A stretch of 64,000 bases of DNA from Bryoerythrophyllum caledonicum (Eukaryota; Streptophyta; Bryopsida; Pottiales; Pottiaceae): the NCBI GenBank assembly GCA_963971425.1, contig OZ020516.1, forward strand, positions 33,592,199 through 33,656,198. Direction: 5' to 3'. Shown here in pieces: positions 30,670 through 61,188 of the stretch. The position numbers and the translations under genes are program-made. The number at the start of each line of letters is the position of its first letter. The first letter of the stretch is position 1. The notes under the pieces were generated by a model, which saw only the letters and a list, made by a program, of their open reading frames with translations, searched no databases and was not told the DNA's origin.

Positions 30670-32312
30670 TGGATGCCATAGACACCGAGAACCCACATTC
30701 AGGAGTCATGAAGTTCACAGAGGCTGTAGACTTAGCCCCAATGGCAAGTGGAGGCCCAATCCCATCCAAGAAAGCTAGAGGTAACTATGCCACCTCCATT
30801 CAAGTCTCTATCCCTAACCTCTCCTCATTTCGTTTTTGATTAGGCTTTTCTACCATGGAAAAGCTTGCCAAGGATGTAGGACAGGAGCCCCTATTCAGTG
30901 GAGAGAGTATTAGAGATATGATCACTCGTGGAGTACCCAAGGATGAAGCAGAGGAGGCTCTTGGCACCGCTGTGGCTTACCCGAGGATCCCGCAATTATT
31001 ATACTCATCGATCCGCAACGACAACATCGAAGGCCAACACTACAACCTTACACAGGTACCCTTCGATATCCCTACGCACCCTATCACCGGACTCTCCTAT
31101 GACTTCCATGTGGCAATTCATTTCAAATTGCCACCACACCCCATGTACCATGACGACGTGAAGAGGCTAGCATTAGCTAGACTCGAATACATGCACATCC
31201 CATTAGGCACCAACCTAATGGACCCCACGGCCGTTCTATGCAAAGGGGTCAAAAAAGAGGGGCAGAAGATTATATGGTCAGGAATTATTAATCTACACCT
31301 CCTCAGGCCAGAGGTTGATGCTATTGCTGTCCTTCGTGGCACTAGATACTTCATTTTACAATTGGACCCCATATGACAGGCCTCCTTAGGGAAAGTATGT
31401 AAAACTTTCCACGCAGTAGCGAGGAAGAACTTATCAGTGTGAATCAAGAGCGAGTCTCTCAAAGGTGTGACTGCCCACACCCTCTTCCAAGATGTGGTGA
31501 CAAACAGTTTCTCGAGAAACTTAGAATTCGAGATTACAGATGTGCAGAAGGTATAGGAAGATTCACACGCCTTCATTGTTGCCCCAACCCCTCAACAAGC
31601 CAAAAAATTTGAGCTACACCAAATTACCACACAACATGAGGTGTTGTCAGCGCGTGCTAGTAGCTCTGGAGGCCTCTCTCCAGCTGATAGAGCCAAGAAG
31701 GACGCATTAACGGTCACCCTCTCACATCTCCCCATCCTTGTCAGCGTGGTAGAAACCACGGCAGCCATTCACCAAACCTTTGAGGCCAAGAATATCATCT
31801 CCCTCTGGTTCCATAGGCAACAGAGAGGAATGCACAACGGTAGTGCCAATGTGCAATTCCCTAACCCCATCATCTACCGCCAATTTCTTCACAAGACATT
31901 CACCATAGGGCGTCACCAAGTGGAGATTTCTCCCCATCGCCGTAGCCTCGAAGGAGAAGACCCACCCGCCACCGCATTATTGCAGAAGTGGGGTTTTAAT
32001 GACATCAACAAAGCCCTCGTAAACACCGTGGAGTCCCTCCAAACTACCCCCGCTCTAGCGAGCATCACCAGGTCAGAAATGACCTCTATTATAGATGCAC
32101 GCAACAAAAGACTGCGTCAGGAGCTCTCTACCCTTAGAGAGGACATCATCAAAGACACAAGAGCCTATACCGATAACCGCACTAGTGAGCTACAAGCCAA
32201 GTTATCAAATGTGGAGCAGCTAATGACCTCAGCACTGATGGCTATGCAACAAATTACAGGATTGAGGCCACCAAACACTCCAACCTTGGAAGACCACTCA
32301 AACGTGGATTGA
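30670..32312 (+). pseudogene. LINE copy A ORF1, several nonsense mutations
   Basis: The frame starts at ATG 30670 (MDAIDTENPHSG) and aligns along its length with the intact ORF1 of copy B (44312-45934). Shared blocks include the LFSGE...DMITRG stretch, the PQLLY and EGQHYN segments, HNGSANV and SPHRRSLEG. In-frame stops are at 30838-30840 (TGA, where copy B has Trp), 31374-31376 (TGA), near 31420 (TGA) and near 31553 (TAG). The C-terminal part is predicted to be helical and coiled-coil-like. Function would be as in copy B; here it is inactive. Confidence 0.8.
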
Positions 32313-33680
32313 CCAATGACCCCAGTCCAAGAAATCATGAATATGGCACCACATGGAAGGACAAGGTTAGCACCCCTCTCCTCCATACTCCCCAATTCTC
32401 TTCGAACATTTCTATTATCCCCTCTAGTATGTGCTCTTCTCGTCACTACTATATGCTAGTTAGTACTCTCACACATACTATACTAGTACCCCCCACAACA
32501 CTACAACCAGATGTAAACTCCCAAAGGCTTCACCCTCTCACTACCTTGCCTTTGATAATGACATATCTTTTCACTACTATAGTTGAAGTATACCTTAGCC
32601 TTACCACAAGATATACCTCCTCATCACTAGTCACCTCCTACTCTAGACACATTCTCTACTATTACCACAAAATACTTACAACTAAATGCATGATCTGGAG
32701 ACCTCACGTTGAACACATGTATTGTTTTTGGGGTTTCACCCCACATATCTATAAACATTGTCATTGCATATACCATTACGGTATGAATATCTCTTGGGAA
32801 AAAACATACAAGATACACACACTCAACACTCATACACTCTCACAACATCTCTACATCACAAACACACCCCATACACACACACACAACACACAAATCCTAC
32901 TCCGACAAACACCTCCAACTTATAAGAATATTTACCACCTTACATGTCACCTATTACACACACCTCCCAAAAACACAACCATACAAACTATCAACAACAC
33001 AAACTCACCAAAAACAACCATCATAATTGCATACATACCATCATACACACACACACACAAAATCAAGACAAACACACAAACACCCACACACTCACACACA
33101 CAAAAACACACACAAAATAAATCCACAAATACACATGTACACAAATACACATGTACACAAATACACATGTACACACATACACAAAAACAAAAATACACCC
33201 ATACAACCAAATATACACACATAAGACCAAAAATACACATAAAACATATACACACATACATACACACACACACTCACACATCCACAATCACAAACACAAT
33301 CCCACTTACATAAAACCACAAAGACACACACAAAAACACACCTAAAAAACTATAAACAAGCCCAAAACATACACCCCATCCCTCGGGTAAACACACACAC
33401 TACATACACATCTCACAAACATACTTACCTACCACAACCCCCTATACCCAAAACAACACATATCTCACATCAAACACCAACCAAAAAATATTGCCATACT
33501 GCACAATACCTACAAAACCATACACCTTCACATACACCATACACATCACCTCCTACCACCCATCCTAAAATCAAAAAATATCACCACCCTCCTTACCCAC
33601 GTAAACTTCTTTCTAACTCACAACAACTCCTTACCCACAATCCCTGGAGAAAAACATACAATTATCGGGGAACCAAACAT
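32313..33680 (+). repeat. CA-rich low-complexity tract of LINE copy A
   Basis: Long runs of ACACAC and ACACATACAC, densest at 32820-33330, with almost no G on the plus strand. The matching stretch in copy B is much shorter, so it has probably expanded by repeat slippage. The frames across it are low complexity and not evidence of a gene. Confidence 0.75.
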
Positions 33681-35620
33681 GTGACCTCCAAAGACCACAT
33701 GATAATACACATCCACCCTATAGTATACCATGCTACACAAAACAACATAGATCTTCTTACTAATATTTACGATGTAGCAATATGCAAGTTTATTAATACG
33801 AGGAATGTATACCGTATTAGAACTTATATTCTATACCAAAATATTTTCTATAGTTTATACCATACTCAAATTTGTACTCACTATTACAATCAATACAAAT
33901 ACTTCATTCAAAAATATACTGAATACGAATACCATACCCCATACAAAAACAAAACAAAAAACTACACAAAAAAGTATACTAAATACCGCACCGAATGCCA
34001 TACACAAAATACTCCAAGCTGCACCAAAAGAAAGACTCCATACCATAACAAACATAAATACCCCGCCAAAAATTACAAAGAACAAAAAAATACATACTCA
34101 CATACTGGTATATATACTAATACAAATACAGATACGGATACAACAACTTATACTACTACCAATACGAACATTATCATGAATACTGACAAAAATACTAATA
34201 CGAATACTGTTACAAATACTAAGACTAAAACTGGGATACATACTAATACAAACATATGTATAAACTTTAAACCAAAAGCAACTACACACACATTTATAAC
34301 TACATATCATCAAAGGGCAAGGAATATTAAAATGTCTAAAAATAGGAAAACCAAGGAGAGTAAAAAGAGATATATTAAATTAAATAGGAAAAAGATAGAT
34401 ATTTATAAAATTTCAAAGGTTTCAAATAGAGCAAGTAATATTAAAAATAAAAGAACAAAATTGGAGAGGATATGTAAGGAGAAAATAAAGGGCAAGGTAG
34501 AATACCATTATCATATGAATACAATTAATAAGAACATAGCAACAAACAATAGTACTAAAAATAGAATATGCTTCCTAAGAGAATTAAAAAGAAGGGATGG
34601 AAAATTAACCAAATTAGTAATGAGATACACAAATTCTAGATTTAAAATAAGCAGAAAAATACTAAGAACAAAACAAAACATTCTAAAAAAAGAAGTAGGA
34701 ATATAAATTATAGGGATAAAAGGAAAGTCAATAGTAAAATTAAATTTGATAAGAGTTTGCGTTTAATGGGTAGAAATTTGTTGAGATTGTGTAGAAGGAA
34801 AATTGAAGTGGGGATGGCCGTAGGGCTGGCTCGATGGGCGCCGGAGGTGCCAAAAATAGACTTATTAAAAATAGAAATTATATTGAAAGTAAGAATATAT
34901 ATGAATCTTTTTGAAATAAATATCAATATATATTTTTTGTATACTGGTACGTATCTATATAAATATCTGTATAATGGTACATATACAGATATGTATACTG
35001 CTGTGTATACTAATACAAATAATGATACTTACACTAGTACAAATACCAATATGAATACTAGTACGTATACCCGTACGAATTATTACAGGAATACTAACAA
35101 GGATATTGATACAAACACCGAGACAAAAACCGAGGCATATACTAATACAAACATACGAATAAATACTAATATAAAAACAAATAAAAATACATATACACAC
35201 ACAAAGACAACAACATACCATCAACGTAACACATACAGAGAAGAACGGCGGTCTCTGAAGAAGGCCGGCGTGAATCGTAACACATACATATACATACACA
35301 CATACAAAAACAAATACATACAATCAAAAAAACACCAAAGTCACATACAAAAACAAAAAAACTTTAAACAAAACAAAAAACCCATCTACTACAAACTACT
35401 AATATTAATCGGAGGAGACATAGAGACTAACCCAAGACCTATGCCGAACGTATTAAAAAGACACCCCACTTCACACAAAAAGAATGCCAAAACATATTTC
35501 ATACCAAATACCATAAAACTACAACCCGAATACGAACACATCGCCCAAAAATTTGCCCCCCTTTTCAAAACCACACATATATTACATCAACAACATAATA
35601 ACGCATACCCACATATCGCC
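33681..35620 (+). pseudogene. LINE copy A ORF2, N-terminal part
   Basis: Thr/Asn/Tyr/Lys-rich low-complexity coding sequence in more than one frame (33681-34706 and 34757-35620), so degenerate. The last part is clearly homologous to copy B: KLLILIGGDIETNPRP at 35393-35440 is the 2A-like motif (here with Arg where Gly is expected), followed by KRHPTSHKKNAK and IPNTIKLQPEYEH. The frame is interrupted at 35620 by copy B and resumes at 48398. A 38-bp LINE 3' fragment is inserted at 35238-35275. Confidence 0.75.
35238..35275 (-). mobile_element. 38-bp LINE 3'-end insertion with 13-bp TSD
   Basis: Only the terminal hairpin and tail of the LINE family are present, in reverse. They are flanked by a perfect 13-bp duplication, CGTAACACATACA, at 35225-35237 and 35276-35288. 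The duplication shows that this is a real retrotransposition event and not a chance match. Confidence 0.88.
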
Positions 35621-35870
35621 AGAAGAAGAAGAACGCCGGTTCCCGAAGGGAGCCGGCGTGAATAAAGTGTCTGTTCGTTCCATTGCTAAGACCATGCCCA
35701 CCGGACAAGGAATTAGCGAATTGGAACTACTTCCCCCTTTCGAGGGTAGACACTATGTAACGAGTAGCCAGAAACCAACCAACAACGACCAACCACGACC
35801 AAACTAACTAAACAACAAAAAACAAAACCAAACAGGCAGCCAATCAGGAATAGACAGAGTGGCGAAGTTC

Positions 35871-38800
35871 CTAAGGGGGGTCTTGCCTATCAGGGAGGAC
35901 TTGGTTGTTTTCGATTTTGCGTTTATGCAGTAAAATAGACATGGCATGTTGAATAGCGATGGTGTTGATATTTTTAAAGGTAGTTTTAATTGTATCAATG
36001 GGTATCTTGAAGGAATCTTCGAGAGTTTTCATAGATGGGATAAAGGTGGTGGCACGAGCGCCGGATGTGATAACAATAAGGGGGTCCACATTCCAGCCGA
36101 GGGCAATGATGTCGTCTATGAGGGGTTGGTATTTATCTATTTTGTTTTGTATTGTTTCCGGGGAGAATCTATCGTTGCAATATGTAAATTCGATGAATTG
36201 AATGGTGTAGTCTTGGTTGATGTTCTCGGGTGGTGGGTCGTTGTATGGTAAACCTTTGACACAAAGAATGTCCGGTTTGAGCCTAGCGTTGCAATGACAT
36301 CTTTGGGTCATACATGAGCATGGAAGTAGCCATGGGGGGACCGTGTTTTCTTGTGGATTGCTATTAAAAGTGTCGGCGTTCATAAGTATGAAACATCTCG
36401 ATTTATTGTAGGAGGTGATTAGTTTTCGGACTTCCCATACCGCTTTGTTATGTCTTTTAACAATTAGGGAGTGTATGTGGTGGTTTTGGCATTTGAGTAG
36501 CACATGAAGCCATGTGTCGGGGTCCGTTGAGGGGCATATGGGGCATGTTATGGATGGGAATCTTTCTATTCCAAAGAAGAGTTGTTTGCAAGCGTTTCCC
36601 ATGTACTGACCCGTACGGAATTTGATGAGGCACGTTATTTGTGAGTCTGAGATGATGGGGTTTTTCCAAAAGTTTGTAGAGAGTTCATTGTCTATGTCGT
36701 TATTGTTAGTCCATTTTTCTATGTTAGGAATATTTTCTGAGATTGTATCCAGGTTGTTGTAGAGGTCTTGTTTTTTGAGATATTTGCCCAAAAATCTAAT
36801 TGGGCCTTTGTCGGGGGTATCTTCTTTGGAAGGCCAATCTTCTTTTTGAAAGTAGTATGGGGTGGCATGGGCATGTTCGTGAGGGTCTTTGGCATTTTTG
36901 TGTGTTTTTTCTCGGCCTTCTTTTGCAAGTTTGTCTGCTTGTTCGTTGCCATCAATGTTGGCATGGGCTCTGACTTTGTGAAGGGTTGTGATTTGTGTAC
37001 GTTTTTGTAACATTTGTACCATTGATGTTAGTATGGTTTGGTCGGGGTGACTGTTGTGAAGGGTTGGGTGTGTTATTTGAGTGTTTAGTAGGTAGAGTGC
37101 ATTTATACAATCGGTGAATATATGTGCAGGTTCATTTTTGTATTCTGTTGTGATGATTTGTAGTGTTTTGTGAATGGCCATGAGTTCTGCTCTGAGGATA
37201 TTTTGTAGTCCATGGAGTCTTTTGGCTAGTTTAATTTCTTTGGTAGAATTATATATGCCATAGCCAGCTTTTTCTCTTCGCCAAGAGCCCGGGCTAATTT
37301 GTTCCGGTGGTTTAAAGGAGCCGTCGGTGTAATAACTGTATGCGGGGTTAAATTTTGGTGTGGTATGAGTTGGGTAGTCTGGGAGAGGGGGAGGTATGAC
37401 GGAGTAGTTTAATGTGTTGTTGTCATAGTTTAATTTCGACCATTTTTTACTTTTGTTTACAGGGGTTTGTATGGGTGTTGGTGGGGCCGGTTTTGTGTAT
37501 GGTCGTAGTATGTCTAGATTGTCTGTTATGGAGGTAAGTTCCGCAAGTTGTTCTAGGGAGCCCAGGTTTTGATTTTGATGATGGACGCATAGTATTTGTA
37601 ATGTAGATGGCTCTATTCGAGGTTTTTTTAGCTCGGGTGGGATATTAGGTTCTTCGTATGGTATTGTGTCTGCTTCGAATAATGCAATGATGTGGGAATC
37701 TGGGAATGGGTTTGAATGTTGGTTGTTGTTTTGGTACCAATTGTTGTTCGGTGTGACGATGATTGTTTTTGTGTTATTTGGATCGTGTTTGGCGGCAAGT
37801 CTAGCCCAATGTATGGTTTGTTCTATGTCTTTCTCGTTGTGGGGGTGAGCTATTCCATTTCCGATCCATTTGTGTTCAAAGGCCTTGCCTAGGGATCCAA
37901 ATATTTTGTCTCTTTCATATGGTGAGTAGAATTTATTTAGTTTGGTAGGACATGTGATCGGGGAGGAAAAGTATGAGTGTTCGATGTTAAAGGATGATAT
38001 TAGTGAGTCTATAATGGGGGTGGGTATTGTGTATTGCGCATTTTTGAGGGGGTCAATTTTTGGTATTCGATATTTATATCTTTGGTATAGCCATATTAGT
38101 TCGGTTTCAAAGGGTTGGGTTCTTGGTTCAATATTTGTAGGGGATTGTAATTTTGTATGATATTGGTTCCATAACCATTGGAGCCGGGTAATGGGTATGG
38201 TGTGTAAATGTCGGCCGTTTTCTTCGTATAGATGTGCTTGATTGTTATCTATTTGAATTGTGTTTGAGGATGTAAGAATATCATTTTCGGGGTTGCATTC
38301 TGTTGTGTAGATGTTTAAAAGTGGGATAATTATGGGTGGCGTTACGGACCTTGAGTCTGAGGATTGTTCTTGTGGATGGTGGGCGAGGATGATATCTGAG
38401 TATATTTTGTTTTGGATCTTTTGGTAGTATTGTTTTAATTTTTCAGTGTTATGTGTGGAGGTATTGGTGTCATGCCGTGGAAAAAGGTCTCTTTGGGGGA
38501 GCCATTTATTGTATGTATTATCATTGTGTTGCCATTGGCATAGGTATTTTGTGTAGGTATTTTGTATGTTATTTGTGTCTGTGTGTTGGATATGTTTATG
38601 GTTTATGATATTATTAATGGGGTATGTGGTAGGGTTTTTGGGGATGTATGTTGGGGGGCGGGGGTGGTATGTATGTGGAGTGTTAGGGGGATTGGTTGGT
38701 GTGGGAATATTTCTTGGGATGATGTTATTGTTGAGGGTGATGAATGGATCTTTAAGTGTATGAGAGTATGGGTGTATGTTGCAAGGAGTATGACATATAG

Positions 38801-41800
38801 TGGGGCATGTTATGTGGCAAAATAGTTGTTTAGCAACACTTAGGGCACTCTTTATTAGTTTAGATGGGGTGAAGTGGTAGGTTTTGAAGTCCTCATTGTT
38901 CATGATGTGTGTACCGTTAGGTAAGGTAATTTGGTTTAGTTCAAAAATATTTTTTGAGAGGAGTTTTTGTAAAAGCTTTTGGGAGAGTTGGGCATTGAGT
39001 GTGTTATGATTTAATGTTTCTTGGCGCCATATTATTTCTAGTGTTGTAAGATTAGTGAGGAAGTTCGGGAGCGTACTTTTAAGGTGGGCTTTAGCTATAT
39101 GTTTTAATAAGAAGAATGTTCGTGTTATTGGTGATCTTATGCAGTCACTTTTTTTAATTCTCGGTATGTTTTCAGCGCCACCATATTGGGCAAGGACATA
39201 GTGAGTTAATCCATTATATATTTTCCCAAGTCTTCCTTTATCGTTTAAAGCATTTTGCAGTTGTTCGCCTATACATCGGAGGTATGCGTTTTTTAGGGAA
39301 AAAGCTTCAAGTCCAAATAGGTTATGTGGTAGTTGGGTTATTGCATTTGACATACATTTTGGTAATCCACATATGGTTTTTTGTATGGCTATTATTTTTT
39401 TATCAAGTTTTTTGATAGCTGGCATAGAGTATGGTACACCGTAGAAACTGTATGCCACACCTGGGCGTAGTACGGTATCAACCATTTTTATTTTTTGTTT
39501 CATGGTGGCTGGGCATGTTGTTAGTTCTTTGCATTGTTTGATGAGCTTTGTGGTTGTAGTGTGGATTTGGATTTTCCATTTTAGTGAGGGAACAAGATTT
39601 GTACCTAGGTATATGTATGGTTCGTTTTGGTGTAGTATAGGGATTGGTTGGTTGCGGTAGTTGATGTTGGAGGTTTGCAATAGGGCTTTGAAAGTGGTAG
39701 GGTTCAATTTAGATTTGTTTGGGCATCCGGTAGCGGCACATTTTGGAACTCCCACATCAATGCCAGCCCATTTACAATATCTATCAACTTTATGGAGTTG
39801 TATTTGGATTGATTTGATTTTGTTAGTTATGGTGGCTAGGTCATCTGCGTATGCGGCGGAGTTTATTGTGACTTGTGATGTGCCGAAAGTATATCCATTA
39901 TTGCCTCTTTCTAGCCATCTAAGTAGTGGTTCTAAAAATATAATAAATAGGTATGGGCTGAGGGTGTCCCCTTGTATAGTTCCTCTTTGGATGGGTATAG
40001 GTTTTGTTTTCCCAAAGTGTTCGCCGATATAGCAAGTAGATGATTGGGAATAGATGTTTCCAACAAGTGTAGTTGCCTCTTTTGGGTAGCCAAGGTCTGA
40101 CATTATTGCTAGAAGTCTGGCATGATCAATTGAGCCAAAGGCATTTTTGAAGTCCACGTATAGTATGTATATATCTTGGTTAGTAAATTTTACGTCTTCT
40201 AATGCGGCTATTATAGTTTGTATTTGCCGTGCGGTACTTCTCTCCGCTCTAAATCCTTCTTGACTATCATGTAGGATTTTGAATTTTTCGCCGTATGAGG
40301 ATAGTATGTGGGTGAGTGTACTGGTAAAAAGCTTATATATTGTGTTAGCTAGTGCAATTGGTCTATGATTGGGTAGCATGGATGGATCACCTTTTTTGTA
40401 TAGTAGAATTGTTGCACTTGTTTTCCATGAATTTGGTATTTGTTTTTGTTTATAGCAGTGAGAAAAGAATAGGAATAGTAGTTTATGAAATCTTGGAGGC
40501 ATGTTTTTGAGTATTGAGTTTGGTATGCGGTCTGGGCCTGGGGTTTTATTATTTCCAAGATTTTGGAGGCATGTGTCGTATGTGGCTCTGTTGAGGTATT
40601 TATGTAGTGGAATTTCTGGTTCGCCCCGTTTGTCAAGGGTATATCCGTCCAGGTCGTGTCAAGGGTATTGGCGTATTGCACATGTGCATTCTATTGTATG
40701 TTGTGGCTGGTAATTACATGTTGGTACTGTTGGTCTATTGGTTTTTGTTTGTTGGTTGAATATTTCATTCGCAATGTCTTCGGGGCTAGTTAGAATATTA
40801 TTATATTGATCTTTGATACAATCCATTGGTGGGGATTCAAGGTTTTTAAAGACTTTTTTGTTAATTTTTTTGGGGCTGATTTCGTATAGTTGTCTGTATT
40901 TTGAGATGGCTTTTTTAATGTTTTCTTTTGTGTATTTTGTGATTATTTTCCGGGCTTGTATGTTGGCATTTTTTGCAATTATCGCGATATCTTTTATCCA
41001 TGTATCGTGGGGAAGGTCCGGAGGCGGCGGGGTAGGGATTTGGATGTGTTGTATATTTAGTAGTTCATTGTGTATGGGGTGGTTATGCCATTGAGGGTTG
41101 TTTTTTACAATTCTAATGGTTTTACGTATGGTATGGTATGTGGTTAAGTGTTGTTTCCAAGTTTTAGAAAGTTTGCGGGATAGATACCCGCCTTGTTGAG
41201 AGGTTCTGTTTGTCATTTGGGGTATTGGATGTGCTCTACAAGTTTGTTCTAGTGTATCAGAGATTTTATTGATGAGTTTGTCTAGAGAGTGGCATGCTTC
41301 TTGCCATTGTGCTTGTGTTAATTGACTATTGATTTCAAGAGTGTTTATGAGGGAGTCTATTTGTACGGTGTTTTCTTCAAAGAATTTTGTGTTGAATTTT
41401 TCTATGTTGGTTTTTGGGATGGGATTGAGTATGCGTATAGTGTCTTTGTTTGGGATTGTAGGAGTTCTACTAATTAGTGTGTTTTTTGGGATGTGCAGTT
41501 GTACGGGTGAGTGGTCCGAATTGAGAATAATATCTTTGTTTGTTGTGGAGGTGTATTGTGTGTTGTTGTTTGTATTTATATAGAAACCATCTATTAGACT
41601 CCAATCACTATAATTGTAGCCACCTTGTCTAGAGAATTGTGTATCGGTATTGATGTAAGTGAAGTTTAAGTTTTCTGTGAAGCGGCGCCATTGGTAATCA
41701 ATGTTTTGAGGGGGGGTGTGATGGTTCCCATTTTGGCGGCCAATTAGCGCTATGTCTCTATTGAAGTCTCCACATAATAGGTATGTATGATTGGGATGAT

Positions 41801-44192
41801 TATTAATATGGGTTGTAATAGTGTTTTGTATATCTAAGAGAAATCTAGTATCTTCGGGATGGGATGGCATATACATGTGAAAGATTAACCACGATTGTAG
41901 TGGGTGATTAGTGATTTTAATTATTTGAATGTATGGTGATATGCGCATTGGGGTAGGGATTTTGTTGATGTTGCCGGGGAATGTATATTTTCTATGTATT
42001 AATGTAAGGAGGCCACCGCGGCCCGGTGTGTATGGTCTCCTTTGTTGCATGCATCTTGTAAGTGCATGTGTATTGTTAAAGATGAGTTTATAGTCTTGAA
42101 ATATATTTTGTATATATTTTGTAGATTTTGTGGCGGTTAGTTTTGTTTCTTGTATAGCTATAAGAGCCGGTGGTGTGTCTGTGTTTGCGACTAGAGTTTG
42201 TAAGCTAGGAAGGGCAGTGTTTAGTGAGGAGGCATTCCAAGTGATTATGTATGTATTTTCTTGGTTTGGTCTAATGTTTTGATTTTGGTTTTGAGGAGGG
42301 ATGTAGGGAAGAGGTGGGGGTGGGTGGGTGTATTCTGGTATAGGGTCTAGACATTTTAGTGATTCACTTATGAGGTTGTTAGGGAGGTAAGGGAATTTTA
42401 GTTTTATTATATCATTTGAGGGTGGTATGTCTTGACTATGTAAGAAGTCGTATAGTCTTTTATGTATTGAGTTCTCATGGTTTACAATGTTTTGGTTGTT
42501 TTCCAAGAATTCTATGTATGGGTGCGGAGTGTGGATGTGTCTTTCTGGCGGGTTTTGTAAGTTTAGTATATTTTGTAGTAGTGTATTGGTCCATGTTATT
42601 GTGTTTAAGTTTTGTGGGTTTAGGAGATGGTTACATTCATCTATGTGTGGATGGGTGGTGACTACTAGTGCATATAGCATGTGGGGTGGCGGATGCATAT
42701 TTTTTTGTTGGACGTATTGGGCAATGTTTGGATGTGTAGTGTTATGTGTGTGGTGAGATATGTGTGTGTTTTTTAGAAAAGGTGCGAAGGATTTTGCAAT
42801 GTGGCCATATTCCGGTTGTAATTTTATGGTATTAGGTATGAAGTATATTTTGGCATTTTTTTTATGTGATGAAGGGTGTCTTTTTAGTATATTAGGCATC
42901 GGGCCTAGATTAGTCTCAATGTCTCCTCCTAAGATTAGTAGGAGTTTTATGTATTCTGGTTTGTTGCTCTGTTTTAGGGTTTTTATTTTTCGTGTAACTT
43001 TATGAGGTGGTTTTTTTTTTTTTTTTGTTCTATTGTAGTTGTGTTTGGTCTGTGGTGAGAGGGGGTTTTTATTTGGGTGTGTTGTTGTTTTTTCTTTTGT
43101 TGTACAACTGGTGGTTTTTTCATTTATGGTTGCTAGTTGTTTTGTTTTTAGGGTGGATTTGCGTGTGTTAGTTTGTGTGTGTTCAGTTCTATGTTTTTGT
43201 TTAGTTCTAGTTTGGGAACCGGTGCTCTTCTTTTTCTTTGTGTGTATGTTTATGTATGAGTGTTTGTGTGTATGTGATTTATTTTGTATTTTTTTGTATG
43301 TTTGTTTGTTGTTTGTTTTCTTATTTGTTTGTGTAAGTATGCGTATGTTTTTTGGTGTATGCGTATGTATTTTATTGTTGTGTGTATTTGTGTGTATATG
43401 TGTGTGTGTATAGATTTTAGTGTTTGGCATTTGGTTTTCGGTGGTATAGTATTTGTATTTTGTATAGAAGAAGTATCTTTTAATATATGTTTGGTAGTTG
43501 GTATAGTGATTGGGTATTTTGTGAATGTATTTATGTTGTAAGATGTATTTGGTATGGGCCGTATCGTGTATGATTGTAAATTGTGAGTGGACTACTTTTT
43601 GTATTATACTAGTGAGAGGGAAGTATTTACTTATGGTATTTTTGTAGTGTAGTATTTTAGTTTGTTGTTTTCTTTGATTTTTTGGTTTATATATATTTTT
43701 TGGATGGGTTGTTTTTATGTTTTTATTTTTCTTTATGGTTGTATGTGTTTTATTTGTTATGGTATTTATGATTTTCTTGTTTGTATTTGTGATGTATGTA
43801 GTGCTAGTTGAAGTGGTTTTATTTGATTTATTGTTTTGTTTTGGTTTATTGTTTTGTATGTTGTTTTTGTTACTTGGCTTGGTGTTTGTTTGTGTATCTT
43901 GGCTTGTGATAGTCTTAATGTAAAGATGTTGGTTTATGTTATTGCATCTTTTTTCGTATGTGGATGTTGTGTTCATATTTGTGTGTGTATGTGTATTGTA
44001 GGTAGTATTTTTATTTGTGTATGTATATGTATTTGTATGTATGTTTTGAGAATTTGTATTTATATGTATTTTGGTATTGGTATTTGTATATGTATTCGAG
44101 TATGTATATACATATTCTCCTTTGTGTAGAATGATGTATTTGTATTGAATATGAAGTCTAATACAGTCTTTATACGCCCCATGTATGGGCAT
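35871..44192 (-). pseudogene. LINE copy B ORF2: APE, RT, RNase H and RLE; one TGA
   Basis: About 2,773 codons from the first ATG at 44192, with one in-frame TGA at 40661-40659 (codon 1178), where copy A has Trp. Order, numbered from that ATG: residues 1-415, Thr/Asn/His/Lys-rich; 424-431, 2A-like DIETNLGP; about 650-900, APE endonuclease (TWNASSL, AIQETKL, CGDFNRD, SLIDGFY, SDHSPV); about 1200-1500, reverse transcriptase (SQEGFRAERS, YVDFKNAFGSIDH, QGDTLSPYLF, YADD at 1448-1451); about 1500-2280, thumb and linker; about 2285-2430, RNase H with acidic residues in YTDGS (D2290), RAEL (E2336), FTDC (D2361) and GNEQAD (D2420); C-x2-C-x9-H-x4-C from 2550; then a PD-(D/E)xK core with KPD (D2641), IEFT (E2668) and a following KIDKY. 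RNA nicking and copying (target-primed reverse transcription) is the expected role. All catalytic residues appear present, but the stop separates APE from RT. Confidence 0.88.
42900..42923 (-). other. 2A-like ribosome-skipping motif in ORF2
   Basis: DIETNLGP follows a hydrophobic KLLLILGG stretch, as in 2A peptides (consensus D-x-E-x-N-P-G-P). The first Pro of NPGP is Leu here, whereas copy A (35417-35440) keeps that Pro and changes the Gly to Arg. Both copies are mutated at different positions, so the active ancestor probably had the complete motif. It would release the low-complexity N-terminus from the enzymatic part. Confidence 0.65.
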
Positions 44193-44311
44193 ATGGTTGT
44201 ACACTACTACATATAATGTATTAGTATAGCATCCATATTTTATACTAGGCTTTAGTATATGGATACGGTATATTGTATGGTCAATGATAGTTGCCTTGTA
44301 GTCTTTGTAGT

Positions 44312-45934
44312 CTACAAGTTTGGCGGCTTGTCTTCAATCATAGGTGTAGCCATGCTTCCCGTGATGGCTTGCATTGAAGCAAGCGAGGCGCTCATTGCTT
44401 GTTGGATGCTCAACATTTGAGCCTTCAATTCTTCATGTCTTTGATCGGCATACTCTCGTGTCTCCTTCCTCATCTTCTTGTTGCTTTCTTCCATAACCGA
44501 CTCCACAATCTCCAACACATCTTGCTTGGAGATGTTGGGTGAGGGTTCTTGTATCTTGAAGGTCTCCACCGTGTTGATCATGGCGGCATTAACGTCATCG
44601 AACCCGAATGCCTTCACTTGTGCTTCGGAAGGGGGTTTCGTTCCTTCTAGACTCCTTCGGTGTGGTGCAAACTCTACAAGGTACCCTCCCATGGCAAAGG
44701 TTTTGTTCACAAATTGCTTGTAAACAATTGGGTTAGTACAATGTACGTTAGCACTACCATTGTGCCTAGTTCCACATTCTTTATGGAACCAAATAGATCT
44801 AGTATTAGTATCACCAATGATTTTGCGAATAGCATCACTTGTATCACAAACACTCATAAGGATAGGAAGAGGAGAGAGGGTTAGAGTTAAGGCATCCTTT
44901 TTTGCCTTAGTTTCTTGTGAAATCTTCCCTCCGATGATGTGTTTTGCTTGTATGACCTCATGGTGTGTGGTGACTTGATGGAGTTGGATCTTCTTTGCTT
45001 GTTGGGGTGTCGTGGTCATGATGAACGCGTGGGTGTCGTCACTGCCCTTTTGGACTCCGGTAATCTCGAACTCTTGCCCCCTTCGAAAACTATTCAAGAG
45101 GGCGTCCTTGAAAAGATTGTTGGCCGAAATTCCCTTCAAATTGTCACTCTTCACCTTGACAGAGAGGTTAGAGTGCCTAGCAATATTTTGATAGCTCTTA
45201 CAAACCTTTCCAATGACATTGTGCCCATCTAGCTTGAGAATGAAGAGTCTAAGTCCCTTAAGCATCATGATACCATCAATTTCGGGTTTTAGCAAGTGTA
45301 GCTTAATTGTTCCCGCCCATACACCCTTTTTTCCCGCATTTTTGACACTTAAACATTGAATTGAGATAGGGTCTATGAGATCATTGCCTAGTTTTATGTC
45401 CATTACTTCTAGTCTTTTTGTGACCATTATCTTAATTTCATCATGCATGATTTGGGAGGAAGGGGGTTCGAAATGAATTGCAATGTGAAAATCAAGGGCC
45501 AAACCTGTGGATGTGTTGGTGGTGATATCGAAGGGAAGTTGGGTGATGTTGTAGTGTTGTCCCTCCACTCCATTTCTTGTGCTTGGATAGAGTAATTGTG
45601 GGATGTGGGGAAATGCCACCTTTGCCACACTTGCCTCCTCCGCCTCTTCTATCTTTAATCCTCTTGTTATCATATCTTCGGCGGTTTCTCCACTAAAAAG
45701 TTCTTGGAGTCCTTCTTCGATTGCAAGGGCCTCCATAGTAGGATACCCCAGCCAAAATTTGAAGGTCACATTTACCGGTTGGGTGATATGGTGTAAGTTG
45801 TCTCCTATCATGACATTCTTCATTTTCTTGCTTGAAGTGGGGGTGTCTACGGTTTGCCTTGTTGTCTTCTCAATCACCATTGTGTCTTCGTCCTCCTTCT
45901 CATTAAAGTTGAGGAGTCTTTTAATGCTACCCAT
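44312..45934 (-). CDS. LINE copy B ORF1 protein, intact, 540 aa
   Basis: An uninterrupted frame from ATG 45934 (MGSIKRLLNFNEKEDED) to the stop at 44312. It ends 120 bp before the first ATG of ORF2. No RRM, zinc knuckle or PHD finger is visible, so it is unlike the usual plant L1 ORF1. Two regions are conserved in copy A: residues about 60-240 (FSGETAEDMITRG, QLLYPSTRNGVEGQHYN, LDFHIAIHF) and about 330-450 (KKDALTLTLSPLPIL, HNGSANVHCTNPIVYKQF, APHRRSLEG). The C-terminal 80 residues, rich in E, K, Q and M, look like a coiled coil that could trimerise it. By position it should bind LINE RNA, but this is inference. Confidence 0.8.
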   Translation of the reverse strand: MGSIKRLLNFNEKEDEDTMVIEKTTRQTVDTPTSSKKMKNVMIGDNLHHITQPVNVTFKFWLGYPTMEALAIEEGLQELFSGETAEDMITRGLKIEEAEEASVAKVAFPHIPQLLYPSTRNGVEGQHYNITQLPFDITTNTSTGLALDFHIAIHFEPPSSQIMHDEIKIMVTKRLEVMDIKLGNDLIDPISIQCLSVKNAGKKGVWAGTIKLHLLKPEIDGIMMLKGLRLFILKLDGHNVIGKVCKSYQNIARHSNLSVKVKSDNLKGISANNLFKDALLNSFRRGQEFEITGVQKGSDDTHAFIMTTTPQQAKKIQLHQVTTHHEVIQAKHIIGGKISQETKAKKDALTLTLSPLPILMSVCDTSDAIRKIIGDTNTRSIWFHKECGTRHNGSANVHCTNPIVYKQFVNKTFAMGGYLVEFAPHRRSLEGTKPPSEAQVKAFGFDDVNAAMINTVETFKIQEPSPNISKQDVLEIVESVMEESNKKMRKETREYADQRHEELKAQMLSIQQAMSASLASMQAITGSMATPMIEDKPPNL

Positions 45935-48386
45935 GTATTTGAATGTACTACTTCTGGTTTGTATGAAAGTTACTATGTGGAGGAGGAGGGTCGCTATAGG
46001 AGGGAAGGAGGTCTTAGGGCTTAAGAGGGAGGTCGCAGGGTTTGTAGGGGAGGTAGAAGAGGAAGGGAGGGTGTTAAGGGAGGTCGTGGGGGAGGGGGGG
46101 TCGTAGGAGGGTCACCAGAGGTACAGGGGGGTCGCAACTGGGGAGCTCGCGGGCTGGGGAGGGGAGATGATAGTGTGGTTGGGGGGACCGTTGGTGGGTA
46201 GGTCGAGGGGCTATTAGGTCGGTAGGTCGTTGTGTTCCAGGAGACGGGGTTGCAGTGTCGCCTCGTTGTGCACAGGCTGCGGGGTGATTATCCTCAAGTC
46301 TGGTTTTCGAAGAGTGTCTTTCTCTCTGCGTGCGTGCTTCGGGTGACTTGTGTGTGTTTCTAAACTGCTGGTTCTGCAATGTAGGGGTACTGTGGTTTGT
46401 GTTGGGGTTTTCTGTGGGGTTTTCTGGAAGGGAGATGTGTGGTGTTCTGTGGGGTTGATGAGGGGAGGAGTGGGTGTGGGTTTCTGGGGAGGGAAGTGCG
46501 TTTGTATTTGTGGAGAAGGGGGTGCGATACTTTCTAGGGGCTGTGGGGGGAGGGTTTATGACTGGGGTTAGCTGGGTTTAGGGAGAGTCGGGGGGGGGGG
46601 TGAGCTTCGCGGTGTGATCTGTGAGAGGAGAGTTCTGTGTGCTATGTGAGGTGAATGTGGGGAGAGTCGAGGGGGATCCGGGTTGTCCAATGTGTTTTGT
46701 GAGGGGGGAATTCCGTTTGATATGTGGGGTGAATGCAGGAAGAGTCGGGAGGGGGGCGAGTTGCACGATGTGTTCTGATAGGAGAAGGTTCTGTGCGTGA
46801 TGTGAGGTGAGTGCGTATTGTAAGGTGAGTGCGGGAAGGGTCGGGGAGGGGAGCGAGCTGCGCGATGTGTTCTCGCAGTAGGGTGTTCTGTTCGTACTGT
46901 AAGGTGAGTGCGGGGAGGGTCAGGTGGGGGGATTTCTACGGGGTGTAATATGAGAGGTCTAGGAGGGGGGGAGCTTTGTTTGCTGGGTGGGGGAAGTGAG
47001 GATCCGCAGGAGAGGGAGTAATTGTGGGTGGGTGTATTAAGTTCTGGGAGGGTTTGGAGGATGAGGGGCTGTGATGTGAGTCGAGGGGGAACTGCCAAGG
47101 GGAAGGGCTGTGGTGAGGTGAGTAATGGGAGGGTTTGGGGGAGAGAGATTGCTGTGATGAAATCTGGGAGGGTTTAGAGGCTAGGGGATTCGGAGGTGTG
47201 CTTTGGGGGGACTGGGAGGGGGGGAATCTATGTTCAGTGCGAGGTGATTTTTGGGAGGGAGTTGATCTGCAGTTGTAGTGGGATGGATTCGGGGTGGGAA
47301 GAGGTGGCGAGGGTTTTTGAATGGGTTGAGTAGTGCTCTCGGCGAGCAGGGAGGGCGAGTGGCTGCCGGTATAGTGAGTGGGGGGAGGTGGAAACAAAGG
47401 GAGGGGGTAGGGAGGGAGGGAGGGGAGAGGTAGAGGGGAGGGGAAGGGGAGGGTGGTGTGAGAGAGGGGGCACCTGTTGCGAGGAGGGAGGGGAAGTTGA
47501 TGAGAGGTGAATGCGGAACGATGGTCTAGGTAAACGAGCTTACCTGATATGTCTTCGTTGAGGTTGAAGTCGGATCTGTTGCTACGACTTGTGCTCCTCG
47601 TCTCTCCGTTTCGATTAAGGGCTGATCTACTACTTCGGATTGTGCTCCACGTCTTCGTAGGGTTTACTGCTCCGTTTTGATTGAAGGCAGCTTTGTTGCA
47701 TAATGTGTTCTTCTGCGCTGTTGAAGTTGGTGCTGTTACGACTGCTCTGAAGACAACGTTGCTGCTACTACACTTGTTAACTTTGATAAAGCATGTTAGT
47801 GTATGTCCACAATTGCATTTTACATATATGAGATCTAAATCAACTAATTGAAATTTGCAATAAATGAAGAGGAAAGGTATAGCCTGTGATGTCGATTTGG
47901 AACTACGTTGTAGCAGTACTGGATGGCGTCTTCGCTCTATCTTGAACTTGGAATCCTGGGTTGGGGAAGGGGAGACTCGTTGGAGAGGTTTCCAGATCTG
48001 ATCCCTGTACTTCCAGATCTAGGGTGGGTTGTCTTCTATGTGGTCTAAGTGCTAGCAGATCTGATCCCAACACTAAGTTCCGCGCTTCAGATGATACTTG
48101 CATCGATCTGCTCCTTAAGACAACCTCCAACTTCCCTCCTCAGATCTGGTGTTGAGCCATCCAACACTTCCCCTTTGAATCTCAAATCTCGCCAAAACTA
48201 CCACAGATCTGCACACTACGAGGGCTCACAATAGGGCCAGCCAACTCCTATTGCACGCAGTTTGCATCTCACAGGCTAAGTCCCCCACCTCCCCTCACCA
48301 GGAAATACGGAGCTCACTCACTAGTTCTCATCGTCTCCGCTTTCATATTCAAAATTCGGTGTCGGAAACTAGTTTGAAAAGAAAAT
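45935..48386 (-). other. 5' leader of LINE copy B
   Basis: 2.45 kb without a conserved protein. 46070-47470 is strongly G-rich on the plus strand (C-rich in LINE sense) with many GGG runs, densest at 47400-47460. The proline/serine-rich frames there follow from the composition. Like the copy A leader, it has GCGACC(T/C)CC motifs. 47520-48386 is ordinary sequence that should contain the promoter. Confidence 0.7.
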
Positions 48387-48397
48387 CACATATCGCC

Positions 48398-51300
48398 ACA
48401 TATATAAACCAACACAATGAATATCCTCCATCCCACATTCTATATGCCCTAGCTATCACTATACACCCCAACATAGACCTCTGCAATCAACTCCTAAACA
48501 CACAAAATCAAACCATAACCCAATGGACCAATACACTCCTTCACACTCTACATAATCTACAAAACCCCCCTGAAAGACACATTAGTACCCCACATCCTCA
48601 CACAACATTTCTTGAATCCAACTTAAAGATCATAACCCACAACACATTGATAAACAAATAACTATATGACTTTATACACAACCAAAATACACCCCCAACA
48701 AATGACATGGTAAAACAAAGATTTCCCTACCTCCCTAATACTATCATAAATGAGGCACTAAAATGCCTAAACCCCCTCCCGGAATACACTCATCCACCCC
48801 CACCACCAATCCACATCCCACCACAAAACCACAACCCACATACGAACAACAACACAAGCATAATAACATGGAACGCCTCATCCCTAAATACCGTGCTTCC
48901 AAACCTACAAAACATAATTATACACACTAACACACCACCGGCACTCATAGTCATACAAGAAACAAAAATAACGGCTACAAAATCTACAAAATATATACAA
49001 AGACTATTTCCCGACTACAAACTTATTTTCAATAATACACATGCCCTAACACGATACATACAACAAAGAAGACCATATACACCGGGCCGAGGGGGCCTCC
49101 TCACCCTCATACACAAAAAATACGCCTTTCCAGGCAATGTCAAAAAATCCCTACCCCGATGAACATATCCCCATACCTCCAAATTTTGGAAATCTCTAAT
49201 CACCCACTACAATCATGGCTAATTCACCACATATACATGCCATCCCACCCCGAAGACATCAGACATACCGAGAACATCAAAACTAACATCACCACCCATA
49301 TTACCAACAACTCTAACCACAATCACATCTTATGTGGTGACTTCAATAGAGACATTGCCTTCATAGGTAGACAAAACGGAAACCAACACACACCACCACA
49401 ATTAATAGACCTTCAATGGAAAGAATTTACAGAAAACCTAAACTTTAATTACATTCCCACAAACACTACATACTCTAGACAAGGAGGATACAACTATAGC
49501 AACTGGAGCCTAATTGATGGATTCTATGTACGTGCAACTAACCATACCACATTTACTTCCACAACAGACAATAACATTCAACTGAACTCTGATCACTCAC
49601 CTATACAACTCCACATCCCAAACAACACATTTATAAATCGTACACCAACCAACACAAACAATGACCATATACGTATCCTCAACCCCATCCCACAAAACAA
49701 CATAGAATTATTCAACATAAAATTCTTTGAGGAAAACTCACTACGCATTGACTCTCTAATAAACGATTTGGAATCTAATAACCATCTTTCCCAAACACAA
49801 TGGCAAGAAGCCTGTCACACCTTAGATACACTCATCAACAACATATTCAATACAATTGAACAAACTTGCAAAGCCCAACCCATACCACAAATGACAAATC
49901 GAACATCACAACAAAGTGGATATTTACCCCGGAAACTATCTAAAACATGGAAACAACATCTAACCATTTACCACACCATACGGAAAACCATAAGAATCGT
50001 AAATAACAACCCCCAATGGCGAAACCACTCTATTCTCAACAAACTCCAAAACCTTCAACACACACAAATTCCTAATCCACCCCCCATACACCTACCTCAC
50101 GACACATGGATAAATGACATAGCATTAATTGCAAAAAATGCCAACATACAAGCCCGAAAAATCACCACCAAACATACCCAAGAAAACATTCGAAAAGCCA
50201 TCTCCAAATATAGACAACTATATGAAACTAGCCCCAAGAAAATAAACAGAAGAATATTCAAAAATATGGAGTCCCCACCATTAGACTGCATCATCGACCA
50301 ATATAACAATATACTAACTAGCCCAGAAGACATTGCAAACGAAATATTTAACCAAGAAACAAAAAACAACACACCTACGGTAAACACATGCAACTATCAA
50401 CCGGACCACTGCACTACATGCACATGCGCAGTACGACAATATCCATGGCATGACCTAGATGGATTCACATTAGAAACAAGAGGAGACCCGGAAACCCCAC
50501 TACACACATACTTTAAACAAGCTACATATGACACATGCCTACGTAACCTAGGAAATAACAAAGCCCCCGGACCGGACCGCATATCAAACTCTATCCTAAA
50601 AAATATGCCTCCAAGGTTCCACAAACTACTAAACCTCTTCTTCTCCCATTGCTACAAACAAAGACAAATCCCCGCTTCATGGAAAACAAGTGCAACGATC
50701 CTACTATACAAAAAAGGAGATCCATCCATGCTACCGAACCATAGACCCATCGCACTAGCAAATACCATCTATAAACTATTTACGAGCACATTCACATCAA
50801 TACTATCATCATATGGCGAAAAACATAAAATACTACATGATAGTCAAGAAGGATTTCGCGCAGAAAGAAGCACCGCTAGACAAATCCAAACAATAATAGC
50901 CGCATTAGAAGATGCACAATTTACAAACCAAGACATATTTATACTGTATGTCGACTTTAAAAATGCCTTCGGCTCTATTGACCACGCTAGATTTTTAGCC
51001 ATAATGACGGACCTTGGATACCCCAAAGACGCCACCGCACTAGTGGGAAATATATACTCCGAACCCTCAACTTCCTACATAGGAGATCACTTTGGTAAAA
51101 CTAAACCCATAGCCATCCAAAGGGGAACAATACAAGGAGATACCCTAAGCCCATATTTATTTATTATATTCCTAGAACCACTACTTAGATGGCTAGATAG
51201 AGGCAACAATGGATACACATTCGGGACATCACAAACCACCATCAACTCCACGGCATATGCGGACGACGTTGCGGCCATAACCAACAAAATCAATGCCATA

Positions 51301-54300
51301 AAAATACAAATTAAAAAAATAGACAGGTACTGCAAATGGACAGGTATGGATGTAGGAGTCCCAAAATGTGCCATCACTGGATGCCCAAATAAATCAAAAA
51401 CAAACCCCACCGCATTCAAAGCCCTAATACAAACCTCTAACATTAATTACCGAAACCAACAAATACCCGTTCTACACCAAAACGAACCATGTACATATCT
51501 AGGAATAAGTCTCGTCCCCTCTCTAAAATGGAAAACCCAAATTCATGCCACCACCACAAAATTAATCAAACAATGCAAACAACTAGTAGCTTGTCCGGCC
51601 ACTATGAAACAAAAAATAAAAATGATCGACACAGTTTTAAGACCGGGCGTGGCATACAGCTTCAACGCGGTACCATACTCAATGCCCGCCATAAAAAAAC
51701 TGGACCAAAAAATAACTACCACACAAAAAACCGTATGTGGCATGCCAAAATGTATGTCAAACATAATTACCCAACTTCCACACAGCCTCTTTGGACTAGA
51801 AGCTTTCTCACTAAAAAACGCATACCTTAGATGCATAGGAGAACAACTCCAGAACGTTCTAAATGATAGTGGCAGACTTGGGAAGATATACAAAGGCCTA
51901 ACACATCACATCCTCGCACAATATGGGGGGGCAGAAAACATACCTAGAATAAAAAAGACAAATTGTACAAGATCACCAATAACACGTACCTTCTTCTTAC
52001 TAAAACACGTAGCAAAAGTCCACCTAAAAAGCACTCTCCCCAACTTTCTTACAGAACCAACAACACTAGAAAAAGCCAGGACTCTTGAAATACAAAACCA
52101 TAATACACTCAACACACAATTATCTCAAAAGTTATTACAAAAACTCCTAACAAAAAATATCTACGAACTAAAATAAATCTCCCTACCCAACGGAACACAC
52201 ATCATAAACAATGAAGAATTTAAAACCTACCACTTCACCCCATCAAAACTTATTAAAAGTGCCCTAAAAATTGCACGACAACTCTTTTGTCACCCAATAT
52301 ATCCCCTCCCACCCAATACACATACCAATACACATACATACTCTCATACAATTAGAGACCCATTCATCACTATAAACAATGACATCACCCCAAGAAATAT
52401 CACCACACAATCGATCCACCCTCCCCACTCCCACCCATACCACCCCCACCCCCCAAACCACATCCTCAAAAACCCCACCACCTATCCCATTAACAACATC
52501 ATACACCACGAATACAAGGAAAAAATAGATAAAAACCAAATAGAAAACAATTACACTAAATATCTATGCCAATGGACTCACAATAACCACACTTACAACA
52601 AATGGCTCCCCCAAAGAAACCTTTTCCCAAGACACAACCAAAACACCATTTCACATAACACAAATAAATTGACACAATATTATCAAAGAACTCAACACAA
52701 ATTTTACACCGAAATTATCCAAGTTCACCACCCACAAAACCAACCCCAAGACACAAGGTCCGTCACCCCACCCACAATAATCCCCCTACTAAACATCTAC
52801 ACAACGGAATGCAACCCCGAAAAAGACACTCGTACCTCATCTAACACAATAAAAATTGACAAAGACCAAGCACACTTATACGAAGAAGTGGAAGGCATCT
52901 TTTTACCATCCCAATCACTAGGCTCATATGGTTGTGGAACCAATACAATACTAAACTACAAACCCCTACAAACATTGAACCAGCAACCCAACCATTCGAA
53001 ACCGAAGTCATTTGGCTATACCAAAGATACAAATATAGATTACCAAAAAATAACCCCCTTAAACTTACACAATATACACTACCCATACCTATACTTAATT
53101 CACTAATCTCCACATTCAACATCCAACACTCATACTTCTCCTCCCCCGTCACATGCCCCACCAAACTCAATAACTTTTACTCCCCCTTTGAAAGAGATAA
53201 AATATTTGGATCACTAGGCAAAGCCTTTGACCACAAATGGATAGGTAATGGTATGGCCCACCCACACAATGAAGAAGAAACACAACAAGCTCTATATTGG
53301 GCCCGACTCGCGGCCAAACATGATCCAAACCACACCTCCACCCTAATCATAACCCCAGACAAAAACTGGTACCAAAATCATAATCCACACTCGGGCCCCT
53401 TTCCCGATACACACATCATCACAATATTCGAAGCGGATTCAATAACATATGAAGAACCCACCATCCCACTAGATCTAAAAAATCGAGAATTGAATCATCC
53501 ACTCTACAAATAATATGTATCCACCACCAAAATCATACTCTAGGCACACAAGAACAACTAGAAGAACTCTCCTCCATAGCAAAGACTCTAAACGTACACC
53601 GGATATTCACAAAATTGGCCCCACCAACACCAATGCAAACACCTGTCAACAGAAGCAAAAAATGGTCAAAACTACACTACAATAACAATACACTAAACTA
53701 CACCTTAACACCCCCACCCCTCCCGGAGTATCAAACTAACACCCCACCTAAATTTAACCCCGAATATAGCTACTATACTGATGGCTCTATTAAACCGCCA
53801 GAACAAATTAGCCTGGGATCTTGGCGTAGAGAAAAAGCCGGTTATGGAATATACAACGCTACGAAAGAAATCAAACTAGCCAAAAGACTACATGGACTGC
53901 AAAATATCCTCAGAGCAGAACTAATGGCCATCCACAAAACATTAGAAATCGTCTCAACAAAATACAACAATGAACTGGTGTACATATTTACAGATTGCAT
54001 TAACGCACTATATTTATTAAACACCCAAATAACACATCCTACCCTCCATAATAGTCACCCCGACCGAATCATACTAGAATCAATGGTCCAAATGATACTA
54101 AAACGAGGACAAATCACAACCCTCCACAAAGTCCGAGCCCATGCTAATATTGATGGTAATGAACAAGCGGATAAACTTGCAAAAGAAGGAAGAGAAAAAT
54201 CACATAAAAATGCCAAAGACCCACATGAACACGCCCATGCCACCCCTTACTATTTCCAAAAAGAAGATTGGCCCTCCAAAGAAGACACCCCCGATAAAGG

Positions 54301-55234
54301 CCCGGTCAGATTCCTGAGCAAATACCTCAAAAAACAAGACCTACATAACAATCTTGACACAATCACAGACAAGTTTCCTAACATAGAAAAATGGACTAAC
54401 AACAATGACATAGACAATGAACTCTCTACAAATTTTTGGAAAAACCCCATCATCACCGATTCACAAATAACATGCCTTATCAAATTCCGTACCGGTCAAT
54501 ACATGGGAAACGCCCGTAAACAACTCTTCTTTGGAATAGAAAGATTTCCATCCATAACATGCCCCATATGCCCCTCAACGGACCCCGACACATGGCTACA
54601 TGTTCTACTCAAATGCCAAAACCGCCACATACACTCCCTAATTGTTAAAAGACATAACAAAGCGGTATGGGAAGTCCGAAAACTAATCACCTCCTACAAT
54701 AAATCGAGATGTTTTATATTAATGAACGCCGACACTTTCAATAACAATCCACAAGAAAATACGGCCCCCCCGTGGCTACTCCCATGCTCATGTACGACCC
54801 AAAGATGTCATTACAGCGCTAGGCTCAAACCGGACATCCTTTGTGTCAAAGGTTTACCATACAATGACCCACCACCCGATAACGTCAACCAAGACTACAC
54901 CATTCAATTCATTGAATTCACATACTGCAACGATAGATTTTCCCCGGAAACAATCCAAAATAAAATAGACAAATACCAACCCCTTATTGACGACATCATC
55001 GCCCTTGGATGGAATGTCGACCCCCTTATGGTAATCACATCCGGCGCTCGGGCCACCACCTTTATCCCATCTATGAAAACTCTAGAAGACACCTTCAAGA
55101 TACCCATTGAAACAATTAAAACATCCTTTAAAAACATTAACACCATAGCTATCCAACATGCCATGTCCATTCTTCTACATAAACGCAAAATCGAAAACAA
55201 CCAAGCCCTCCCCGATACACACGACCCCCTCTAA
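48398..55234 (+). pseudogene. LINE copy A ORF2, APE to RLE part, broken
   Basis: Homologous throughout to copy B. It contains the APE domain (TWNASSL, VIQETKI, CGDFNRD, SLIDGFY, SDHSPI), the RT (SQEGFRAERS, YVDFKNAFGSIDH, QGDTLSPYLF, YADD), the linker, RNase H (YTDGS, RAEL, FTDC, GNEQAD), the CPICPSTDPDTWLHVLLKC knuckle, and the KPD...IEFT...K restriction-like nuclease. Breaks: TAA at 48659-48661, a one-base shift near 49145, TAA at 52174-52176 (copy B has Gln), a shift near 52885-52925 and a shift near 53485. At codon 1178 of copy B, copy A keeps Trp (QYPWHDL). Old and inactive, but useful as an independent witness of the family's protein. Confidence 0.88.
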
Positions 55235-55380
55235 ATTCTCCCCCCGCCTTGATTTTCATGATTAGTTGGTTTTAAGGTTTTTGACTACTTGCTTGGTTTG
55301 TGGTTAGTTCGTTGGCTAGTTACTTGGTTTGTGATTCATTGGTTGGTTGGTTGGTTGACTTGTGGTTCTTTGGTTTCTTG

Positions 55381-61069: not shown

Positions 61070-61188
61070 CGAAAGGGGGAAGTAGTTCCATACTGCTAAT
61101 TCCTTGTCCAGTGGGCATGGTCTTAGTGGTGGAACGAACAGACACTCTATTCACGCCGGCTCCTACGGAGTCCGGCGTTCTTCTTCTT
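61070..61188 (+). mobile_element. 5'-truncated LINE 3' end, 119 bp
   Basis: The last 119 nt of the LINE family, with hairpin CGCCGGCTCC/GGAGTCCGGCG and a TTCTTCTTCTT tail. It is flanked by a 12-bp duplication, CTTGTAACATAC, at 61058-61069 and 61189-61200. Confidence 0.88.

Follow-up and report, generated by a model that had tools for sequence, protein, structure and literature searches.

An abundant LINE family, probably of a moss, with two predicted endonucleases and a PCIF1-like domain

A 64,000-nucleotide stretch of genomic DNA (the window), located on contig C3 of an assembly of 437 Mb in 894 contigs, contains a long interspersed nuclear element (LINE) of ~12.8 kb, here called element A. 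This element is very probably a damaged copy of a young and strongly amplified non-LTR (long terminal repeat) retrotransposon family that has two endonucleases and resides in a moss. Element A occupies positions 35622–48386 on the minus strand, and its boundaries are defined by direct repeats at its ends and by its insertion point within an older relative, element B. The target-site duplication is a 12-bp direct repeat, with the left copy (CACATATCGCCA) at 35610–35621 and the right copy at 48387–48398, both given for the plus strand. An earlier note on this DNA had described a 12.8-kb element with a target-site duplication, and both are real.

All features of A lie on the minus strand. The first open reading frame (ORF1, 44312–45934) encodes 540 residues; B and two further copies contain homologous ORFs, and ORF1 of A is without any Pfam family match. 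The ORF2 frame extends over 35871–44333, where 44333 is the stop-to-stop start, and has a single interruption, an in-frame stop at 40659–40661. This position is open in B and in copies L052, L053, L054 and L055. From its N-terminus, ORF2 is composed of a 2A-like motif, here GGDIETNLGP (42900–42929), an apurinic/apyrimidinic endonuclease (APE) domain (41505–42242; PF03372, E = 2.6e-6), a non-LTR reverse transcriptase (RT) (39603–40388; PF00078, E = 1.5e-26, residues 91–352 of a 1595-residue segment), a weak chromodomain-like stretch (38481–38612; PF00385, E = 0.43 here and 0.0027 in B), a domain like that of the cap methyltransferase family PCIF1 (37743–38147; PF12237, E = 5.5e-10, above the curated cut-off), an RNase H (36912–37340; PF00075, E = 1e-12) and a C-terminus with a zinc knuckle and a predicted restriction-like endonuclease (RLE). 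Between 42242 and 41505 we found TWN, QET, YMPS, GDFN, LID and SDH, which we take to be the APE motifs, and the RT contains AYADD at 39840–39854. The APE near the N-terminus of ORF2, the RT with its YADD box and the RNase H had all been proposed in the earlier note and are borne out here. Beyond its list, the element has 2A-like peptides, the PCIF1-like domain, the weak chromo-like stretch and a 3′-terminal hairpin with a (TTC)n tail (35622–35665). The note had also called the element complete, which holds for its full length and fails for its coding frame, given the in-frame stop and the altered 2A motif. The 5′ region of A contains tandem repeats of ~78 and ~97 bp (46580–46912, TRF). The low-complexity TAC/ACA-rich ORF2 leaders of the window (33000–35400 and 43200–44150) are open through hundreds of codons.

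The second endonuclease is predicted in the C-terminus of ORF2. A CCHC zinc knuckle (CxxC..H..C) with an RHN motif is located at 36438–36545 and is followed by an ordered motif that corresponds to a PD-(D/E)xK core (KPD, IEF and K..KY; 36129–36281). In an alignment of seven copies, no change occurs in KPD, IEF or the lysine of KY. In a direct alignment with the R2 chain 8gh6 the C-terminus scored 68, compared with a shuffle mean of 33, and 0 of 3000 shuffles equalled it. The scores for three R2 chains add up to 171.5, a value reached by 1 of 3000 shuffles, whereas other non-overlapping stretches of ORF2 gave 82.5–122.5. None of 200,000 shuffles contained the ordered motif, a count that is only a guide because the pattern was composed after inspection of the sequence. 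The claim of a C-terminal CCHC and PD-(D/E)xK nuclease thus draws support from the motif and from the shuffles, and none from profile searches; with the APE identified by Pfam, the RLE by motif and shuffles, and both under purifying selection, the proposal of a dual-endonuclease LINE is sustained at the level of sequence.

The ratio of nonsynonymous to synonymous substitution rates (dN/dS) was calculated for A against six diverged copies (B, L052, L053, L054, L055 and L056). Over these six comparisons it ranged from 0.08 to 0.09 for the RT, 0.02 to 0.18 for the chromo-like stretch, 0.11 to 0.19 for the PCIF1-like domain, 0.07 to 0.14 for the RNase H and 0.08 to 0.11 for the CCHC-RLE region. 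Two partial comparisons were available for the APE, yielding 0.08 (B, 121 codons, with saturated dS) and 0.12 (L052, 91 codons). The whole of ORF2, including both nucleases and the PCIF1-like domain, has therefore been maintained by purifying selection as the family evolved.

Several observations weigh against this reading of A. The shuffle test was less clear with two R2 chains taken singly, as 116 of 3000 (9nl3) and 125 of 3000 (9nl2) shuffles reached the score. A profile search of the PDB with the C-terminus of seven copies returned no R2 chain, a Pfam search of the C-terminus gave nothing useful, and hhalign against three R2 chains covered CCHC-RHN only (E = 0.0078, probability 5%; E = 0.51 for a control region). 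Copy L055 is without the first lysine of K..KY. The linkers of ORF2 are constrained as well (dN/dS 0.04–0.33), so that the selection test supports ORF2 as a whole more than each of its domains, and when A was compared with the near-identical copies on C7, C4 and C6 the enzyme-domain ratios were 0.14–0.59, with few changes. The chromo-like match stays under the Pfam cut-off, and two of four 3′ hairpins folded in isolation are weak (z = −1.7 and −1.9). The C-terminal results leave room for an APE-type LINE in which the CCHC only binds nucleic acid, or the RLE is a DNA binder that does not cut, and the APE makes all cuts. The missing PDB and Pfam matches, the profile-profile match confined to CCHC-RHN and the lysine absent from one copy would fit such an arrangement. 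However, the whole ordered motif is present, its central residues are invariant in the seven aligned copies, and the low dN/dS of the CCHC-RLE region also speaks for a nuclease; we consider the binding-only C-terminus improbable.

Element A was inserted into B in the opposite orientation. The halves of B flank A at 35293–35620 and from 48387 onward, and the inverted matches between A and B join at the insertion point (35620|48387), which places A within B. The 5′ part of B (30840–35620, plus strand; 30840 being the first annotated position, not a mapped 5′ end) contains pieces of ORF1 and the ORF2 leader with GGDIETNPRP. The 3′ part (48387–55518, plus strand) comprises the APE, RT, chromo-like, PCIF1-like, RNase H and RLE regions with several frame breaks, so that the ORF2 of B is split into several frames. 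The identity between B and A is 78.7% across 7.1 kb.

Short copies had been claimed in the earlier note, and four 3′-end fragments are indeed present in the window. One of them (37 bp, 35239–35275, minus strand) is located inside B and has a 13-bp direct repeat; the other three are found at 4222–4298 (minus strand, 13-bp repeat), 61070–61190 (plus strand, 12-bp repeat) and 62243–62336 (plus strand, 8-bp repeat). All five insertions examined in the window, namely A and these four copies of 37–122 bp, thus have end repeats of 8–13 bp. The 5′-truncated copy L005 repeats TGCGCCACTATA, 12 bp or slightly more as judged by eye. The (TTC)n tail is shared by A and almost all of 30 loci, with a T-rich tail in L008 and a CT-rich one in L025, and the downstream flanks of the 30 loci differ, with no single fixed target. 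In the 3′ hairpin, double changes occur in three of nine predicted pairs among 11 sequences, and each of five pairs is interrupted or gapped in one or two of the 11. Of the four 3′ ends folded alone, the two remaining ones gave z-scores of −6.1 and −3.5. A search of the window with Rfam returned no match at the gathering threshold. An inverted 3′-end copy was also considered as a general feature of the ORF2 leader and was rejected: the copy in B is a small separate insert flanked by a direct repeat of its own, and the leader of A does not rise above shuffles.

The family is young and occurs in many copies. Exact matches to a 21-mer of the 3′ tail number 1489 in the genome, compared with none for the reversed control. 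With a 209-residue C-terminal query we obtained 8436 candidates at first look, which is not a copy count, and 150 scored places at 98–100% identity. An open frame of 3087 residues is common to 33 of 150 scored places, these being the best 150 of 2614 candidates. Copies are spread over many large contigs, including C1–C15. The leaders vary among subfamilies, while the copies on C7, C4 and C6 agree with A at 97% over its 3′ 7.3 kb. Along the comparison of A with the C7 copy, the likeness climbs near sense position 5930 from ~85% to mostly >95%, a step that suggests an exchange between subfamilies. As a separate observation, the CCHC-RLE region of B (54224–55231) compared with that of A (35874–36881) has a dS of 0.26, and most other parts of ORF2 have values of 0.65–2.5, as if subfamilies had exchanged 3′ ends.

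Two of the additional parts deserve closer description. In four further copies, on C7, C4, C6 and C8, the sequence GGDIETNPGP precedes the catalytic part, and the C7 frame contains three 2A-like motifs (GELEINPGP, GDMETNPRP and GDIETNPGP). Part of the text of PMC4981915 gives the 2A consensus as -D[V/I]ExNPGP- and its occurrence in non-LTR elements. The family shares this D[V/I]ExNPGP motif ahead of the catalytic part with 2A-bearing APE LINEs such as the trypanosome and sea-urchin elements; it would differ from these in its plant host and in the three motifs of a single C7 frame.

PF12237 is matched by all six aligned copies (best E = 2.9e-13), as PF00385 is by three of six at E ≤ 0.1. Its cut-off is exceeded at 150 of 150 scored genome places, again the best 150 of 2614 candidates and inclusive of any host PCIF1 gene. 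The domain aligns with human PCIF1 (6irx) up to FFGSRG, with E = 1.5 in a profile search and E = 0.52 in phmmer. NPPF, presumably the catalytic motif of PCIF1, would be expected just beyond FFGSRG; at this position all six aligned copies have HPHN (placed by eye, as the 6irx alignment ends before it). With NPPF apparently lost, the domain is more likely to bind a cap or RNA than to act as a methyltransferase. The resemblance to PCIF1 (CAPAM), a cap-specific m6Am methyltransferase, thus consists of the PF12237 match and the stretch up to FFGSRG, and the differences are its location in a LINE polyprotein and HPHN in place of NPPF.

The host is most likely a moss, and not a grass as the earlier note had stated. 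The sole match to TIGR02027 (rpoA) in the assembly lies on C3, the contig of the window (283 bits, above the cut-off), with none on the plastid contigs, and the gene read out there encodes an alpha subunit of a plastid-type RNA polymerase. A nuclear rpoA is a moss trait. PF01000 was discarded as an rpoA test, being too loose because this domain is also present in nuclear RNA polymerase subunits. The LHCII proteins score best against the solved chains 8htu (469.6 bits) and 7xqp (467.7 bits), which we take to be Physcomitrium moss chains; others reach at most 440.6 bits, except for the two-domain 9vfj with a higher summed score. The plastid contigs (27–31% GC) have the order atpB-rbcL-trnR(ccg)-accD-ycf4-cemA-petA, with the tRNA assigned by ARAGORN and the gene names mostly from translations. 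A type III polyketide synthase exon in the window is nearest to the solved chain 2p0u (123.6 bits), presumably from Marchantia, with others close at 117.9. These four lines (the sole rpoA on nuclear C3, LHCII, the plastid gene order and the polyketide synthase exon) exclude a grass.

Two further origins of the element were weighed. Two distinct rbcL types are found on plastid-like contigs C821 (L031) and C894 (L033), so that the sample may include a second bryophyte, and the element could then come from a contaminant in the assembly and not from the moss. With copies on many large contigs, C1–C15 included, and a window that bears a plant type III polyketide synthase exon on the very contig with the nuclear rpoA, this is extremely unlikely. 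The element might instead be a divergent plant L1, an APE LINE that acquired extra domains by chance. Plants mostly carry L1, with 233 flowering-plant families in a table of PMC3747384, and a passage of PMC4640811 describes APE together with RNase H in plant L1 as well. Against the solved structures, however, the RT scores 112.8 bits with R2 and 76.8 bits with human L1, the copies read end in (TTC)n and not in poly(A) (the T-rich L008 aside), and the C-terminus bears the RLE motif. We rejected a plant L1 as very unlikely on these grounds, the RT comparison being one with solved structures only.

A dual-endonuclease family has close counterparts among known elements. To R2 it is linked by the best RT match among solved structures and by the CCHC-RHN-KPD-(D/E)-K..KY C-terminus, and it is set apart from R2 by the presence of an APE and an RNase H. 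R2 targets one fixed site in the 28S rDNA, whereas the insertion sites here vary. In domain content it is like Dualen/RandI of Chlamydomonas, with an APE N-terminal to the RT, an RLE assigned by sequence and an RNase H, and on this basis it would work like Dualen/RandI. It differs in residing in a land plant and not a green alga, in the added PCIF1-like domain, chromo-like stretch and 2A-like peptides, and in a (TTC)n tail where RandI has (ATT)n or (CTATTT)n. The Dualen of Chlamydomonas has a cysteine protease. No peptidase was found among the Pfam matches of ORF1, the ORF2 pieces and one leader, a search that a fast-changing domain could escape. Two scans of a collection of viral contigs revealed no relative.

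Passages of PMC4640811 and PMC3636483 define Dualen (RandI) by the combination of APE and RLE and also give it an RNase H; according to the former, the idea of APE replacing RLE in LINE evolution leans largely on Dualen. An excerpt of PMC8226300 reports Dualen from a group of Chlamydomonas relatives, with no species lacking it. The 2013 table in PMC3747384, which spans flowering plants and green algae only, lists L1 and RTE alone for flowering plants and eight RandI families for green algae, all eight with non-poly(A) tails; the simple-repeat, non-poly(A) tail is a further likeness to these algal families. For Physcomitrium, a section of PMC7466625 mentions two LINEs without their clade. Neither Dualen/RandI in bryophytes nor a PCIF1 domain in a LINE was found reported in the open-access literature, covered by titles and abstract openings, with most subscription papers outside this scope.

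Taken together, these features suggest how such an element might move. The transcript would encode ORF1 and ORF2, with ORF1, whose C-terminus appears by eye to form a coiled coil, probably binding RNA. ORF2 begins with the low-complexity leader, and ribosome skipping at the observed 2A-like peptide would free a catalytic polyprotein of the order APE-RT-(chromo-like)-PCIF1-like-RNase H-CCHC-RLE. The RT may recognize the hairpin and (TTC)n tail at the 3′ end and copy the RNA by target-primed reverse transcription; the priming is proposed, while the 3′-end copies, direct repeats and hairpin are observed. The two nucleases would probably divide the strand cuts, so that one produces the priming nick and the other cleaves the second strand, and the PCIF1-like domain, having seemingly lost NPPF, might serve in binding the cap or RNA. 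A bolder proposal, which we put forward tentatively and hold to be rather doubtful in its entirety, is that the family represents an extant lineage of dual-endonuclease LINEs of land plants that depends on both APE and RLE, with the two strand cuts divided between them, and that has acquired a cap-methyltransferase fold as a non-catalytic reader of the capped 5′ end of the element's own RNA, which would favour full-length copies. Second-strand cutting by LINEs is unsettled, and the moss family could show how the work of cutting is shared. A young and abundant family with both nucleases under selection would make this division testable, and the PCIF1-like domain suggests a new route by which a LINE may handle capped RNA.

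Some minor observations concern the surroundings of the element and the host genes. The chalcone-synthase-like type III polyketide synthase exons are located at 1440–2954 of the window on the minus strand. A MULE transposase (PF10551, 1e-6) with a SWIM zinc finger (PF04434) occupies 26563–29193, also on the minus strand. Directly upstream of the nuclear plastid-type rpoA (L058, C3:15883401–15884900) there is a possible transit-peptide exon, and the LHCII genes are clustered in both orientations at C7:27705118–27714122.

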